46,179 nucleotides of DNA. It comes from Promethearchaeota archaeon. Lineage in GTDB: Archaea; Asgardarchaeota; Lokiarchaeia; Sigyniarchaeales; SOKP01. The notes beneath the pieces are model-generated. The model was not told the origin of the DNA. It saw only the letters and a list, made by a program, of their open reading frames with translations, and did no database searches. The stretch covers positions 1-46,179 of the forward strand of contig JAEOSD010000004.1 in the NCBI GenBank assembly GCA_016840545.1, given 5' to 3'. Within the stretch, counting starts at the first letter, position 1. Each line of letters starts with the position of its first letter. Positions 5,546 through 32,320 of the stretch are shown here, piece by piece. The translations under genes were made by a program, and so were the position numbers.

Positions 5546-6532
5546 TTGGTTGAAGAAACTAAAACAATGAGAGGTTTAGATGCCATACGATTAGCTATTG
5601 AAGAAGAAATGGAACGGGATGAATCTGTTTTCATAATGGGAGAAGATATCGGAAAATTTGGTGGTTGTTTCTTTGTAACTGAAGGTTTATTAGAGAAATT
5701 CGGCCCTGAAAGAGTTCGCGATACACCCATTAGTGAAAATGCTATTTTAGGTTGTGCAATTGGTGCTGCGATGGCGGGTATGCGTCCTATTGCAGAAATT
5801 ATGTTTGCAGACTTCTTGACGGTTTGTATGGAAATGATTGTGAATCAAGCAGCAAAGGCAAGTTATATGTATGGAGGTCAAATTTCTGTCCCCGTCACAA
5901 TTAGAGTTCCATTTGGAACTGGTATAATGGGAGCGGCACAACACTCACAATCTTTTGAATCATGGTTTATGCATGTACCAGGTTTAAAAGTTATATTGCC
6001 ATCGGAAGCAAGTGATTTTAAAGGTTTGATGAAAACCGCAGTGAGGGATGACGATCCAGTAATTTTTTTTGAAAATAAAAGGGCATATTACCTTACTGGT
6101 GATGTTCCTTTAGATAAAGATTTCAAAATACCATTTGGTCAAGCAAGAATCTTCACTGAAGGTGATGATGTGACATTAGTCGCTACAGGTGCTATGGTGC
6201 AGGAAAGTATGATAGCAGCGACTAAATTAACAGAGGAAAATATTCATTGTGAAGTTATCGATCCAAGGACTTTAGTTCCATTGGATAAAAAAACAATCCT
6301 AGCTTCAGTTGAAAAAACAGGAAAGTTAATTATCGTTGATGAAGGCTGTAAAACTTGTTCAGTTAGTGCAGAAATTGCAGCTATTGTTGTAGAAGAGGGT
6401 TTTCAATATTTAAAGAAAGAAATTATAAGAATTAACACCCCAGATGTTCCAATTCCTTATTCTCCAAAGTTAGAAAAAAAAATCATTCCAAATGCAAAAT
6501 TAATTCAGGAAAAAATTAAGAAACTAATTTAA
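5546..6532 (+). CDS. pdhB: 2-oxoacid dehydrogenase E1 component, beta subunit
   Basis: The beta subunit pairs with E1 alpha to form the alpha2beta2 ThDP enzyme. Motifs present include 'MGEDIGKFGG' near the N-terminus, 'RVRDTPISENAILGCAIGAA', 'RPIAEIMFADF', 'VTIRVPFGTG' and the C-terminal transketolase domain ('VEVIDPRTLVPLD'-like and 'IIVDEGCKT'). The frame opens with ATG at 5531, but a strong Shine-Dalgarno GGAGGG sits at 5533-5538, three bases after that ATG, and is correctly spaced (7 nt) for the TTG at 5546. I therefore choose TTG, giving 328 residues; the ATG form would be 333. The neighbour on the far side is convergent, so the transcript probably ends here. Confidence 0.9.
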   Translation: MVEETKTMRGLDAIRLAIEEEMERDESVFIMGEDIGKFGGCFFVTEGLLEKFGPERVRDTPISENAILGCAIGAAMAGMRPIAEIMFADFLTVCMEMIVNQAAKASYMYGGQISVPVTIRVPFGTGIMGAAQHSQSFESWFMHVPGLKVILPSEASDFKGLMKTAVRDDDPVIFFENKRAYYLTGDVPLDKDFKIPFGQARIFTEGDDVTLVATGAMVQESMIAATKLTEENIHCEVIDPRTLVPLDKKTILASVEKTGKLIIVDEGCKTCSVSAEIAAIVVEEGFQYLKKEIIRINTPDVPIPYSPKLEKKIIPNAKLIQEKIKKLI

Positions 6533-24960: not shown

Positions 24961-24975
24961 CGAAACCTTTAAATA
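24961..24975 (+). promoter_or_regulatory. BRE and TATA box of the grpE-dnaK operon
   Basis: CGAAA (24961-24965) directly before CCTTTAAATA gives a classic archaeal BRE/TATA arrangement with TTTAAATA at 24968-24975. The expected transcript start, 22-27 bp downstream, is about 24998-25002, inside the palindrome described next. Confidence 0.6.
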
Positions 24976-24994
24976 CTTATTTCAACATATAGTA

Positions 24995-25033
24995 ATTGTC
25001 AATCATGAATTGACAATAAAAATTAATTGACAA
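24995..25033 (+). promoter_or_regulatory. Palindromic operator candidate of the chaperone operon
   Basis: ATTGTCAAT (24995-25003), five bases CATGA, then ATTGACAAT (25009-25017) is a perfect 9-bp-arm palindrome centred on the expected transcription start. A third half-site ATTGACAA follows at 25026-25033, a direct repeat 17 bp further on. A repressor bound here would block initiation. It does not look like the bacterial CIRCE element (TTAGCACTC-N9-GAGTGCTAA). Confidence 0.6.
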
Positions 25034-25040
25034 AAATAAA

Positions 25041-25724
25041 TTGAAAAAAATGGTATTTGAAGACTATTATGATAAATTTTTCAATGCTCGGAGGTCATTA
25101 GAGGACCCTTATAGCAAGATTACAATATCTAAAAACGAATATAGGCAATTGAGAGAAATTGCTGAAAAATATGAGACTTTAGTTAAGAAATTTAAAGACG
25201 TCGAAGCTAAAAAATCAGAATTACACAGACAACTTGAGGAAATGAGAGATGATGGTAGAAAGCTTAAAGATTTAGAGGAGAAGACAGAAAAATATTTAAA
25301 TTCACTCGTAAGAGTACAAGCTGATTTCGAAAATTATAAAAAATCAAATCATCGTGAAAATGAAAGGTATAAGATGAGAATAAAGGAAGAAATACTAAGA
25401 AAATTGATTAAGCATTATGAAGATTTACAACGGGCATTAAAAATCTTAGAAACCTTAGAAAATAGTGAGCAAGTAAAAAAAGGGTTTGAGATGATCATGA
25501 AGAACTTTGAAAAAATTCTCGAAGTAGAGGGGGTAAGAGAGATGAAATGTGAAGGACAAAAGTTTGATCCTTATAAGCATGAAGCTCTTATGGTTGAAGC
25601 GAACGATAATCTCCCTGAAAATACTATTATTGAAGAATTAGATAAAGGTTATTATTTTAATAACACTATATTGAAACCCGCAGGGGTTAAAGTATCAAAA
25701 TTAAAATTTAATATAAAAAATTAA
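25041..25724 (+). CDS. grpE: GrpE nucleotide-exchange factor
   Basis: The co-chaperone that releases ADP from DnaK. At 227 residues it has a long N-terminal coiled coil (about 30-110, heptads of L/E/K), the 'RVQADFENYKKSNHRENERYK' helix and the C-terminal beta-wing domain ('EGQKFDPYKHEALM', 'NNTILKPAGVKVS'), all diagnostic of GrpE. The frame opens with TTG at 25041; the ATG three codons later (25050) could be the real start, and no strong ribosome site separates them. It is first in the chaperone operon, 31 nt before dnaK, behind the palindromic operator. Confidence 0.93.
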   Translation: MKKMVFEDYYDKFFNARRSLEDPYSKITISKNEYRQLREIAEKYETLVKKFKDVEAKKSELHRQLEEMRDDGRKLKDLEEKTEKYLNSLVRVQADFENYKKSNHRENERYKMRIKEEILRKLIKHYEDLQRALKILETLENSEQVKKGFEMIMKNFEKILEVEGVREMKCEGQKFDPYKHEALMVEANDNLPENTIIEELDKGYYFNNTILKPAGVKVSKLKFNIKN

Positions 25725-25755: not shown

Positions 25756-27642
25756 ATGGGAAAAATAATTGGTATCGATTTAGGAACTTCAAATTCTGCT
25801 GCTGCCGTATTAATTGGTGGTAAACCAACCATTATTCCTAGTGCAGAAGGTAATACATTAGGGGGTAAGGCATTTCCCTCAGTTGTAGCATTTACGAAAG
25901 ATGGACAGCGATTAGTTGGTGAACCCGCACGAAGACAAGCTATTTCAAATCCAGATCGCACTATAACAGCTATTAAACGTAAAATGGGTACTTCTTACAA
26001 GGTAACAATTGATAGAAAGGATTATACCCCACAGGAAATTTCAGCAATGATTTTAAGAAAGATCAAAGAGGATGCTAGCGCTTATCTAGGTGAAGAAGTT
26101 ACTGAGGCAATAATTACTGTTCCAGCTTATTTTAATGATAATCAAAGACAAGCTACGAAAGATGCGGGAAGGATCGCGGGATTGAACGTTAAGCGTTTAA
26201 TCAACGAACCTACTGCCGCCGCCGTCGCTTATGGATTAGATAAAAAAGACGCTCGGCTAAAAATTGCTGTTTTAGATCTTGGTGGCGGTACTTTTGATGT
26301 CACTATAATGGAAATGGATAATCAAGTATTCGAAGTTATTTCCACGGCTGGAGATACTCAACTTGGTGGCACAGATATGGATAGAATTCTCGTTGACTAC
26401 ATAATTGATGAGTTTAAAACTAAAGAAGGTATTGATTTAAGAAAAGATTCAATGGCAATGCAAAGAATAAGAGAAGCTGCGGAACAAGCTAAAATTGAGT
26501 TATCAACTTCAATTACAACTGATATAAATCTACCATACATTACAGCTACAGATTCAGGGCCTAAACATCTTAATATGTCAATTACAAGAGCAAAATTAGA
26601 ACAATTGATTGAAACTGTTTTGAAAAGATTAGAGGCTCCAATTATTAAAGCTCTGGACGATGCAAAATTGAAGAAAGGTGAAGTTGATAAAGTAATATTA
26701 GTAGGTGGACCCACAAGAATGCCAAGTATTCAAGAGAAGTTTGAGAAATTCTTAGGTAGAAAACCGGAAAGAAGTATCGATCCTATGGAATGTGTTGCTA
26801 TTGGTGCTTCAATTCAGGGTGGAGTTTTAACTGGTGAAGTCAAAGATTTGCTACTTTTAGATGTTACTCCATTATCATTAGGAGTTGAAACATTAGGAGG
26901 CGTTTTTACTAAATTAATTGAAAGAAATACTACTATTCCAACTAAAAAAACTGAAATTTTTAGTACAGCTGCTGATAATCAACCTGCAGTAGAAATTCAT
27001 GTTTTACAGGGAGAGAGACCTAGAGCTGCAGATAACATAACATTAGGTAAGTTTCATTTGACCGGTATTCCTCCAGCACCAAGAGGCATGCCTCAAATCG
27101 AAGTTACTTTTGATATAGATCAAAATGGTATCTTAAATGTATCTGCAAAAGATAAAGGAACGGGAAAAAGTCAAAGTATAACTATTACAGCCTCAACAAA
27201 AATGTCTGAAGATGATATCGAACAAAAAGTAAGAGAAGCGGAGCGAAATGCTGAAGAAGATAGGAAGTTCAAAGAGCTAACAGAAGCTAAAAACCAAGCA
27301 GAAGCTCTGATATATCAAACAGAGAAACTTATTAAAGAAAACGAGGCTGTAATCGGAGATTTGAAATCAAGGATTCTCGAGAAAATTTCAGATTTGCGAA
27401 GTGCTATGGAATCAGATGATGTCTCCAGGATTAAAAGCGCAACAGAAGCTTTGCAAAGTTCATTACATGAAGTTTCAGCTCGGATTTATGGACAACAACA
27501 AGGTGCACATCAGGGGGCCCCACCTGGAGGTATGGGTGGAACAAGTCCAAAACATCAAGGAAAAACTCAAGATGAAATTGAAGAAGAGCAATTTAGACGT
27601 GCTACTGGTCAAGAAAACGTTGTAGATGCAGATTATGAATAA
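25756..27642 (+). CDS. dnaK: Chaperone protein DnaK (Hsp70)
   Basis: The ATP-dependent Hsp70, 628 residues. The N-terminal ATPase begins '[15 protein letters not shown]', with '[10 protein letters not shown]'-like, '[16 protein letters not shown]', '[17 protein letters not shown]' and '[14 protein letters not shown]'. The linker and substrate-binding domain follow ('[20 protein letters not shown]', '[20 protein letters not shown]'), then a helical lid and a Gly-rich tail ending in 'VVDADYE', like bacterial DnaK. Most hyperthermophilic archaea lack Hsp70, so this gene group is generally regarded as acquired from bacteria. It works with the adjacent GrpE, DnaJ and ClpB in refolding and disaggregation. 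Confidence 0.97.
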
Positions 27643-27722: not shown

Positions 27723-28736
27723 ATGGCTAAAGATTATTATAAAATTTTAGACGTCCCAAAAAATGCTACAAAAGAAGAAATAAAAAGAGCATTTCGAAAG
27801 ATGGCTCGGAAATATCACCCAGATGTAAATCCAGATGAACCAAAATCAGGTGAAACTTTTAAAGAAGTAAACGAGGCTTATGGTATTTTAAGTGATGATA
27901 AAAAGAGAGAAATGTATGATAAATTTGGCGTAGTAGATGGAGACCCTTCAACATATCAACAATCTGGACAGGGATTTCCTGGGGGAGGAAGAACATATAG
28001 AAATCCAGATGGAAACACAACTTATTATTATTCAACCTCTGGTAATCCAGGAGGATTTGATTTTAGTGAAGTTTTTGGAAATAATAAATCTTCAAGAGGC
28101 GGGTTTGGAGGATTTGATTTTTTCAATGATTTAGGAGATATTTTTGATGTATTTTCGAAAAGAGGTACTGGTAGTACAAGAGCTCGTTCACCGTCATATA
28201 ATTATCCACGAGAAGGAGATGACTTACGATATGATATGGAGATTGAGTTTATGGATGCTTTTTATGGAGGAAAAAAGAAGATTCAATATAAAGATCCAAA
28301 ATCTGGTCAAATGAAGACCTTAACAGTCAATATACCTAAAGGTATTAGGGACGACCAAAAATTAAGATTAAAGGGAAAGGGAATGCCTGGAGAAAATGGA
28401 GGCTCTCCTGGAGATTTGTATATTGCAGTTCATATAAAGGAACATCCTCTTTTTGAAATAAGAGGTGATGATCTTTATATAGAACGTGAAATTTCTTTCT
28501 CAGTTGCAAGTTTGGGAGGAAAAACTCAAGTTCCTGGTATTGAAAAAACATTAAATGTAACAATACCTCCTGGAACAAGCGATTCATCTACATTAAGATT
28601 AAAAAATCAAGGATTTTTCAAAATTAATTCAAATGAAAGAGGAAATTTATTAATTAGAATAAAAATTAAGATTCCTGAAAGATTAAGTAAAACCCAAAAA
28701 CAATTAATTGAACAATTAAAAGCAGTCGGATTATAA
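27723..28736 (+). CDS. dnaJ: DnaJ-type co-chaperone without zinc finger (class B Hsp40)
   Basis: A 337-residue J-protein that stimulates DnaK ATPase. The J domain at residues 3-68 contains the essential HPD ('[12 protein letters not shown]'). A Gly/Phe-rich region (about 80-150) follows, then two beta-barrel C-terminal domains ('[22 protein letters not shown]', '[18 protein letters not shown]'). The four C-x-x-C-x-G-x-G zinc repeats of canonical DnaJ are absent, and the protein has no cysteine at all, so it is of the CbpA/DnaJB type. It is 16 nt before the clpB start, with AAAGGGG as its own ribosome site. Confidence 0.94.
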
Positions 28737-28752
28737 AGAGGTGGGAAAAAAA

Positions 28753-31374
28753 ATGATGAAATTTGATAAATTTACGATAAAAGTTCAAGAGGCTGTTATG
28801 GCTGCAAGATCATTAGCTCAAACTAATAATAATCAGCAAATTGAACCAATTCATTTATTAATCTCCTTAATAGAGCAACAAGATGGTATTACTACCCCAT
28901 TATTGCAAAAATTAGGGATAAATAACTCCCAATTATTACACGATTTGAATGAAGATTTAGAGAAATTACCGAAGGTAACTGGATCAGGAGCAACTGATGT
29001 AGTTTTATCACGAAATTCTGGAAAATTATTTGATAATGCATGGAAAGAAGCTGAATCTATGAAAGATCAATACCTAAGTACAGAACATTTAATATTAGCT
29101 ATGTCTAAAGACCAAGCTTTACCTATTTACTCCGTTTTAAAAAAATTTGGAATAACTAACGATAGGATTTTACAAGCATTAACTTCTATTCGAGGAAGCC
29201 AAACTATTAATGATCAAGATCCAGAAGGGAAATATCAAGCAATTGAAAAATATAGTCGCAATCTCACGGATTTAGCGAAAAGAGGGAAAATTGATCCTGT
29301 TATTGGAAGAGATGATGAAATAAGAAGAGTAATGCATATACTTTCAAGAAGAACCAAAAATAATCCCGTTTTAATAGGAGAAGCTGGTGTAGGAAAAACT
29401 GCAATTGTAGAAGGATTAGCCCAACGCATTGCTAATAATGATATTCCAGAATCTTTAAAGAATAAAGATATAATTGCGATGGATTTAGCAGCGATGGTTG
29501 CGGGCGCTAAGTATCGCGGAGAATTTGAAGATCGGTTAAAAGCATTTATTAAAGAAGTAGAAAAGGGAGCAGGAAAATATATATTATTTATTGATGAATT
29601 GCATACTTTAATCGGAGCAGGTGCTGCTCAAGGGGCTATTGATGCATCAAACATGTTAAAACCGGCATTAGCAAGAGGAGAATTACGGGCAATAGGAGCA
29701 ACTACTATAGATGAATATAGGAAGTATATAGAGAAAGATGCCGCATTAACACGAAGATTTCAGACTGTGTTTGTAGAAGAACCTAATGTAGAAGATTCAA
29801 TAGCTATTTTAAGGGGATTAAAAGAGAAATATGAAATCCATCATGGAGTAAGAATAACTGATTCAGCAATTATAGCAGCTGTTATGTTATCACATAGGTA
29901 TATTGCTGATCGTTTTTTACCAGATAAAGCTATTGACTTAATGGATGAGGCCGCATCAAGATTGCGAATTGAGATTGATAGTATGCCAACGGAGATAGAT
30001 GAAATAGAGCGAAAGATAATTCAATTAGAAATTCAAAAAGAAGCTTTAAAAAAAGAGAGCGACAAATCAATAAAAGAAAAGATGAAGAAATTGGATGAGG
30101 AACTACATAATCTTCGAGAAGAAAGTGATAAGCTAAAGATTCAATGGAATAATGAAAAAAATTTCATATCAAAAATCAATGAAATTAAAAAGAAAATGGA
30201 AGAAACTAAGATTGAGGCTGAAAGAGCTGAAAAAGGAGGGGATCTTGAAAAAGCTGCGGAATTAACCTATGGAGTTTTAAACCAACTAAAAAAAGATTTA
30301 GAGCAATCCAATTCTAAGTTAAATGAGATTCAAGAAAATAAAATAATGTTAAAGCAAGAAGTTGATGAGCAAGATATCGCAAAAATCGTTTCTCAATGGA
30401 CAGGAATTCCTGTTTCAAGAATGTTAGAAGGTGAGCGTGACAAATTATTAAAAATGGAGGATCGTTTAAAAGAAAGAGTAATTGGTCAAGATGAAGCGTT
30501 GAACATAATTTCAAATGCTATTAGAAGAGCAAGAGCTGGGATTCAAGACCCAAATAGACCAATTGGGACATTTATTTTTATGGGTCCTACTGGAGTAGGA
30601 AAGACCGAGACCGCAAAAGCATTAGCCGAATTTTTATTTGATGATGAAAATGCCATGGTAAGAATTGATATGTCAGAATTTATGGAAAAACATAGCGTAG
30701 CTAGATTAATAGGGGCTCCTCCTGGTTATGTGGGATATGATGAAGGAGGATATTTAACAGAAGCAGTAAGAAGGAGACCATACTCCGTAATTTTGTTTGA
30801 TGAAATTGAAAAAGCACATCAAGAAGTTTTTAACATTCTTCTACAAATTATGGATGATGGAAGATTGACGGATGGTCATGGAAGGACTGTTGATTTTAAG
30901 AATACAATAATTATAATGACAAGTAATATCGGTAGTCAATATATCCTCGAGTTAAGGAAGGAAGATAAAGATCAGAATAAAGAGATGATATTAAATACTC
31001 TAAAGAGTTACTTCAGACCAGAATTCTTGAATCGAGTTGATGAAATCGTCATATTTAACTTCTTAAAAGAGGAACAAATTAAGTTTATTGTAGATATACA
31101 AATCATGAATCTAAATAAAATTCTTTTAGAACATAAGATTCAAATAGAATTATCAGATGCAGCAAAAGAGATGCTCGCTAAAAAAGGTTTTGATCCTGAT
31201 TATGGTGCAAGACCTCTAAAAAGAGCAATTCAAAATCTTATTCAAAATCCATTATCACTCAAGATTTTAGAAGGTGAGATAATTGACGAAGATCTTATTA
31301 AAGTCGATTTAAATAAACATGGAACTTTTGTTTTTGAAAAAATAGGTAAAATTTCGAGGGATTTATCATTATAA
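28753..31374 (+). CDS. clpB: ClpB disaggregase (Hsp104 family)
   Basis: A hexameric AAA+ unfoldase that, with DnaK, extracts proteins from aggregates. Domain order is: N-domain (1-145); AAA-1 with Walker A 'GEAGVGKT', pore loop 'KYRGEFEDR' and Walker B 'FIDELHTL'; the coiled-coil middle domain typical of ClpB and not of ClpA/ClpC (about 400-520); AAA-2 with '[14 protein letters not shown]', pore loop 'GYVGY' and 'LFDEIEKAH'; and a C-terminal small domain ('[17 protein letters not shown]'). No ClpP-binding loop is evident. The frame opens at GTG 28741, but AGAGGTGGG at 28737-28745 is correctly spaced for ATG 28753, giving 873 residues. Confidence 0.95.
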
Positions 31375-31432: not shown

Positions 31433-32320
31433 ATGAATGCTGTTTATAATTTGAATAAAACCATCAATTTATGCCCAGAATGTGGGGGCAATATTATTTC
31501 GCTCCAGGAAACTGGAGATGTTGTTTGTAATCAATGCGGGCTAGTTATGCAAGAAAGAAATGTTGATTTTTCTCATAGTGGGAGAAGAGCTTATAGTAAT
31601 GAAGAAAAATCCAAAAGGGAAAGAACTGGCGCGCCCATTTCAAGTCTTGTACCAGATATTGGATTAACTACAACAATAGATAAAAATAAAATAGATAATC
31701 CTGATTTAAAAAGAGCAGCAAAATGGGATACAAGAATTTCTTGGAAAAAGCGTAACATACTAATTGCCACCACAGAACTCAAAAGAATTAGTACTAATTT
31801 GAATATACCAAATCATGTAAAGGAAGAAGCAATGCGCCTTTATAGAGAGGTATTCAAGCAGAATTTACTTCGAGGTAGATCAATAAACTCAATGATTGCA
31901 GCTTGTTTATATTATGCAATTAGAAAATATAGATTGTCTAGAACTCTACATGAAATCTTAGAGGAAACTGCTGAGAAAGATAAAGATGTTAGACGATGTT
32001 ATAGAGTTTTAATTCGAGAATTAAATTTAAAAGCCCCAAATACTAAGCCAAGTGCTCTAATTCCAAGATATATTGCTGAATTAGGATTATCGCCAGAAGT
32101 TGAAAATTTAGCCACAAAAATAGTGAAAACTTTCATTTCCAATTTTTCTAGTAGTGGAAAAGATCCGAAGGGGATAGTTGGTGGAGCTATTTATCTAGCA
32201 TGTAAAATAAAGAATAAAAGTTATACCCAGAAACAAATCGCAGATTCAATTGGGGTGACTGAGGTAACCCTTCGTTCAAGATATAAAGAATTAAGACAAA
32301 AACTTAATATTTCTCTGTAA
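31433..32320 (+). CDS. tfb: Transcription initiation factor B (TFB)
   Basis: The archaeal TFIIB homologue, 295 residues. The N-terminal zinc ribbon has Cys14, Cys17, Cys32 and Cys35 ('CPECGG', 'CNQCGLVM'). The B-reader/linker ('RRAYSNEEKSKRERTGAP') follows, then two cyclin repeats ('SWKKRNILIATTELKRIS...' and 'PRYIAELGLSPEVENLATKI'), the second ending in a helix-turn-helix that contacts the BRE ('QKQIADSIGVTEVTLRSRYKEL'). It recruits RNA polymerase to TBP-bound promoters. Its position directly after clpB suggests it may be a stress-associated TFB paralogue rather than the housekeeping one; that needs a genome-wide TFB count. Confidence 0.97.
   Translation: MNAVYNLNKTINLCPECGGNIISLQETGDVVCNQCGLVMQERNVDFSHSGRRAYSNEEKSKRERTGAPISSLVPDIGLTTTIDKNKIDNPDLKRAAKWDTRISWKKRNILIATTELKRISTNLNIPNHVKEEAMRLYREVFKQNLLRGRSINSMIAACLYYAIRKYRLSRTLHEILEETAEKDKDVRRCYRVLIRELNLKAPNTKPSALIPRYIAELGLSPEVENLATKIVKTFISNFSSSGKDPKGIVGGAIYLACKIKNKSYTQKQIADSIGVTEVTLRSRYKELRQKLNISL

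Follow-up and report, generated by a model that had tools for sequence, protein, structure and literature searches.

The grpE-dnaK operon and its promoter

The window (the whole stretch of 46,179 nucleotides that was analysed) contains a chaperone operon on the forward strand, in the order grpE (25050..25724; Pfam GrpE, E=1.1e-37), dnaK (25756..27642; Pfam HSP70, E=1.6e-225), dnaJ (27723..28736; Pfam DnaJ and DnaJ_C), clpB (28741..31374; Pfam Clp_N, AAA_2 and ClpB_D2-small) and, at the operon end, tfb, a transcription factor B paralogue (31433..32320; Pfam TFIIB, E=4.8e-38). The conserved start of grpE is the ATG at 25050 rather than the TTG at 25041 given by a mechanical ORF call, and the GrpE protein is 96% identical to that of the closest named relative, 'Candidatus Lokiarchaeota archaeon YT2_053'.

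Upstream of grpE, a BRE/TATA box (CGAAACC TTTAAATA; 24961..24975, forward strand), in which TCGAAACC lies immediately 5' of TTTAAATA (24968-24975), is followed by the exact palindrome ATTGTCAAT-N5-ATTGACAAT (24995..25017), the candidate heat-shock operator, and by a third half-site, ATTGACAA (25026..25033), 17 bp after the second arm. The original prediction had named these same elements, a good BRE/TATA at the right distance before a perfect palindrome with 9-bp arms and an additional half-site, and each of them is in place. With 34.5 bp between the TATA centre and the dyad, the operator would extend over the predicted start site of grpE and its early transcribed region; related chaperone promoters mostly have distances of 27.5-42.5 bp. 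We also noted that the TATA-to-dyad distances are mostly 20.5, 27.5, 34.5, 41.5 or 55.5 bp, that is, in 7-bp steps, in roughly 18 of 25 non-redundant promoters, a tally assigned partly by eye from the chaperone promoters in L005-L033, L139-L168, L200-L217 and L311-L335. An extra half-site, TGT[CA]AA, lies 14 bp 5' of the left arm in 10 of 28 chaperone promoters.

The palindrome is rare in the DNA that carries it. Allowing up to three mismatches, the window holds one match where shuffled sequences give an expectation of 0.07, and across the whole 2.88-Mb genome the grpE site is the only one with fewer than three mismatches, the next-best matches having three. This genome was searched both by patterns and with a sequence-only model of 31 positions, whose two best sites were the grpE promoter (22.7 bits) and the promoter of an hsp20-like-cdc48 operon (18.1 bits). 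The latter site is degenerate, matching at 14 of 18 positions, as is the site at the genome's own canonical hsp20 gene, which scored 15.1 bits and fell below two intragenic sites (17.8 and 15.6 bits) that were taken as chance matches. A winged helix-turn-helix gene lies 3' of a weak site on another contig of this genome (C193).

Conservation of the operator and extent of the predicted regulon

In order to determine whether the palindrome recurs in orthologous promoters, where its absence would have counted against the original prediction, upstream regions were compared across Lokiarchaeia. The genomes compared are mostly incomplete MAGs, and many of the sites are related by descent. At the grpE orthologues of the genus, the BRE/TATA (TCGAWACC TTTAAATA) occupies the same upstream place in most promoters and is followed by TTGTCAA-N7-TTGACAA. 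With the spacing relaxed to N4..8, the pattern was found in 16 of 24 genus genomes, mostly at grpE, compared with 4 matches for a reversed control pattern. The third half-site is less constant, appearing as TGACAA or TTACAA at the same distance in several grpE promoters of the genus and in only 5 of 29 promoters of a broader set. Some family promoters have a weak operator (four) or one that was not recognised (three).

The remaining N7 matches in the genus lie upstream of a gene for a 206-219 aa protein that is followed by cdc48. As this protein has a weak Pfam Hsp20 match (E=0.033) and a relative in the sister family matches an Hsp20-like model, we refer to it as hsp20-like. The same element lies 3' of the TATA box in hsp20-like-cdc48 promoters across the family, and for 27 of 30 of these promoters a weight matrix made from grpE sites only gave scores beyond the 99th percentile of a background of 162 promoters (p=8e-18). 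The highest background score is equal to that of a canonical hsp20 promoter, and one such promoter (G009) was part of the background.

A sequence-only model built from 28 sites was then run on whole genomes. Among the 30 best distinct sites (E<0.05) in the scans of 24 genus genomes, 25 were chaperone promoters. Other high-scoring sites, three in the window's genome (contigs C5, C83 and C61) and one in each of two relatives (G019 C52 and G021 C54), are intragenic and were taken as chance. Because the model was partly trained on the sites that it recovered, the independent tests are the genes on which it was not trained and the sister family described below. The untrained genes recovered were nine canonical hsp20 genes in eight genomes, including that of the window, and stand-alone dnaK genes in two others. 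In families without a close orthologue of the regulator introduced below, there was no model match at E<0.018, and the sole chaperone-type gene among the matches examined was a small Hsp20-like gene in a single genome. A 478-aa coiled-coil protein encoded 3' of a possible operator half in another genome (G024 contig C347; L336 525-1961) may be a further member of the regulon.

The comparisons give good support to the view that the palindrome behind the grpE promoter is a real, conserved site, predicted to bind a repressor and common to several heat-shock operons. Equally well supported by the same kind of evidence is a predicted regulon that comprises the grpE-dnaK operon, the hsp20-like-cdc48-regulator operon and canonical hsp20 genes. 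The original prediction proposed a dedicated repressor for a KJE/ClpB regulon; comparative genomics upholds a dedicated chaperone regulon, but its limits must be widened to take in the hsp20-like-cdc48-regulator and canonical hsp20 genes.

A candidate repressor encoded behind cdc48

The strongest HTH_20 match of the genome is on the hsp20-like-cdc48 contig, directly 3' of cdc48 (contig C113, about 5600-6429), giving the gene order hsp20-like, cdc48, candidate regulator. In most genomes the regulator and hsp20-like matches share a contig and are some 3 kb apart, and the regulator is present in 35 of 37 family genomes in one copy each, the two genomes without it being incomplete. Pfam assigns the protein to HTH_20/HTH_5, and its best PDB match is 2p4w, the Phr protein of Pyrococcus furiosus, both for the single protein (E=4e-9) and for the family profile (E=1.2e-16). 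A fold search with the predicted model (mean pLDDT 78.7, pTM 0.44) also placed 2p4w at ranks 1 and 2, with a whole-chain rmsd of 14 A and a TM of 0.36, so the comparison is a loose one over the C-terminal half. Within the window's family, the recognition helix, (S/T)RQA(V/I)H(S/N/V)QL, hardly varies.

Two observations concern the gene itself and its neighbour. The repressor gene of the window's genome (L239 5594-5653) and that of its nearest relative (L274) have no in-frame ATG, GTG or TTG before the conserved domain; in the former, an ATA follows a likely ribosome-binding site at the position of the homologues' start ATG, making an ATA start possible. After the repressor gene, the family encodes a small HExxH (zincin-like) protein without a Pfam match (L239 6450-6962 and orthologues), possibly a heat-shock protease.

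Several of the features by which membership of the HSR1/Phr regulon (arCOG01684) is judged are found together here. The regulator is an ArsR-type winged-helix protein homologous to Phr/HSR1, its gene lies in or beside the hsp20/cdc48 operon, and the palindrome lies 3' of the TATA box at what is predicted to be the start region. In addition, the operator precedes the regulator's own operon (hsp20-like-cdc48-regulator) in the window's genome and in relatives, pointing to autoregulation through putative read-through into the regulator gene.

A sister family of the same order (f2) provides further evidence. In two of its genomes (G046 and G050), hsp20-like genes, cdc48 and a diverged regulator stand in one row, and in a third (G042) the regulator again follows cdc48 while the hsp20-like gene is elsewhere. 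The recognition helix reads SKQAIKKHL in f2 and SRQAVHSQL in the window's family, and the f2 hsp20-like promoters carry GTTAAC-N5-GTTAAC or variants of it. All seven exact copies of GTTAAC-N5-GTTAAC in eight f2 genomes are upstream of chaperone genes, namely hsp20-like (four), dnaK (two) and clpB (one). Several of the copies with one mismatch are upstream of dnaK, clpB or hsp20-like genes and most others are intragenic; one such site (G046 C275) has no recognisable chaperone gene downstream. Compared with GTTAAC, the window's operator, GTCAAT-N5-ATTGAC, keeps the N5 spacer and has two transitions in each arm. The f2 core, TAAC-N5-GTTA, is the core of the published HSR1 operator, CTAAC-N5-GTTAG (PMC9133787), and the palindrome of the window is therefore best read as a diverged operator of HSR1/Phr type and not as an unrelated element. 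In going from one family to the other, operator and recognition helix both change while the regulon is largely retained, a correlation that forms the strongest link between the site and its putative regulator. The pair of families would thereby offer a natural experiment, that of a repressor changing specificity without losing its regulon.

Proposed mechanism and its alternatives

Our preferred reading, to which we assign a probability of about 0.84, is that the palindrome is the operator of the Phr/HSR1-family (ArsR-type winged-helix) repressor encoded 3' of cdc48, in an operon that carries the same operator, with release upon heating and feedback by the repressor on itself. The support for this model is comparative throughout; what ties the candidate regulator to the operator is where its gene lies, the family to which it belongs and its co-occurrence with the site. 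In unstressed cells, a dimer of the repressor would occupy the promoter start region, 3' of the BRE/TATA, and would prevent RNA polymerase from being loaded onto the TBP-TFB complex. Phr is published to act in this way, blocking polymerase recruitment from a position overlapping the start site, with its repression lifted upon heat shock (PMC9133787). Heat or unfolded protein would release the repressor, so that GrpE-DnaK-DnaJ-ClpB-TFB, Hsp20-like-Cdc48 and the small Hsps would be switched on together, and the loop would close as the repressor's own operon, once induced, supplied fresh protein.

The site could instead be a heat-shock operator read by a winged-helix protein other than the one linked to cdc48. 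The genome has many ArsR/HTH_20-like proteins (27 HTH_20-like matches), a second ArsR-type member of which could read the same site, and in some relatives a TrmB-like regulator stands 3' of a similar palindrome, TTGTCA-N8-TGACAA. The cdc48-linked protein, however, is nearly universal in the family, is itself under the operator and is a Phr homologue, and in f2 a different operator goes with a different recognition helix of this protein, all of which makes another reader unlikely. The TrmB-like protein was rejected as the repressor, being patchy in relatives and absent from the window's own genome, with a palindrome whose spacing is off by one base. The conserved palindrome upstream of the TrmB-like gene was seen in seven genomes (L218-L224) and probably serves in autoregulation; its sequence resembles that of the heat-shock operator, but its spacing is different.

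Bacterial chaperone leaders often hold RNA thermometers, and a perfect pair of 9-bp arms would fold as a hairpin if transcribed, so that the palindrome might act in RNA, blocking grpE translation until heated. Across the promoters, however, the arms vary without compensation, with pairing and covariation no higher than in shuffles, and it is the letters TGTCAA and TTGACA that are conserved and not the pairing; in the window's genome, moreover, the left arm falls at the expected start or 5' of it, judging by the distance from the TATA box. A leader hairpin was rejected on the lack of covariation, and we regard an action in RNA as highly improbable. That the site serves an activator, or is a promoter element recognised by the TFB of the same operon, is an idea drawn from the TFB gene in the chaperone operon and from the multiple TFBs linked to the heat response in other archaea. 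It has just as slim a chance of being correct, the site being palindromic, located in the start region 3' of the TATA box, a usual place of action for repressors rather than for activators or BRE contacts, and accompanied in its regulon by a gene for a homologue of a known repressor.

With the Phr/HSR1-type repressor retained as the preferred reader of the site, the tfb gene may have a role downstream of it. The genome has 8 TFB-like genes, this one included, and many genus members have a TFB gene directly 3' of dnaJ or clpB (six loci). The operon-linked TFBs form one clade (support 94/96), which also takes in two copies from contigs that lack grpE; the 7 other TFB-like genes of the window's genome fall outside it. 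The operon-linked protein is possibly a heat-induced alternative TFB. In bacteria, HrcA and sigma-32 form two tiers of control, and a parallel can be drawn, as a speculative proposal that we consider doubtful, to a circuit in which the repressor releases the chaperone operon, after which the TFB induced by heat would steer RNA polymerase towards another group of genes.

Comparison with known heat-shock systems

No description of heat-shock control in Asgard archaea was found in the literature searched, which left out most subscription papers. The operator sequence of this Lokiarchaeia family is new, as is the apparent shift in specificity between sister families. The operator and its likely Phr/HSR1-related repressor indicate a probable route by which chaperones are switched on in these relatives of eukaryotes, and the outcome is an operator, a repressor and a regulon that can be tested.

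Like the HrcA/CIRCE system of bacteria, the locus combines a grpE-dnaK-dnaJ operon with a palindromic operator close to its start, but the promoter is archaeal and the putative regulator is of a different family. CIRCE is TTAGCACTC-N9-GAGTGCTAA, with a 9-bp spacer, and on reading the grpE promoter this sequence is absent, as originally predicted.

The Phr site of P. furiosus overlaps the hsp20 start, and Phr targets include the Cdc48-type ATPase VAT1 (PMC9133787, PMC10746257). The Loki protein resembles Phr, its best PDB match by sequence and fold, in being an ArsR-type winged helix with long C-terminal helices, but is longer, at about 260-275 aa compared with 202. The Phr operator has a TTTA, TGGTAA, AAAA arrangement (PMC9133787), and a reading of 24961-25050 showed no TGGTAA. 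The original remark that the palindrome is unlike the Phr site holds for this arrangement; it does not extend to archaeal heat-shock sites as a whole, given the HSR1-like geometry and a likely reader homologous to Phr/HSR1.

The closest parallel is HSR1, which forms one family with Phr (arCOG01684), with hsp20 and cdc48 as targets (PMC5852551). In Archaeoglobus fulgidus, the HSR1 gene is linked to those for Hsp20 and Cdc48 and is itself subject to the HSR1 operator (PMC9133787, PMC5852551), as the Loki regulator is linked to hsp20-like and cdc48, and both operators are palindromes with a 5-bp spacer, the arms in the window being of the form GTYAAY. The arms of the window's family are GTCAAT, not GTTAAC or CTAAC, and the Loki regulator gene comes after cdc48, whereas in A. 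fulgidus hsp20 is downstream of HSR1. Finally, the Loki regulon takes in the GrpE-DnaK-DnaJ-ClpB operon, which is of bacterial type, as well as a TFB gene. The presence of such genes inside a regulon of the HSR1/Phr type is new and suggests that an archaeal repressor acquired control over bacterial-type DnaK and ClpB genes.
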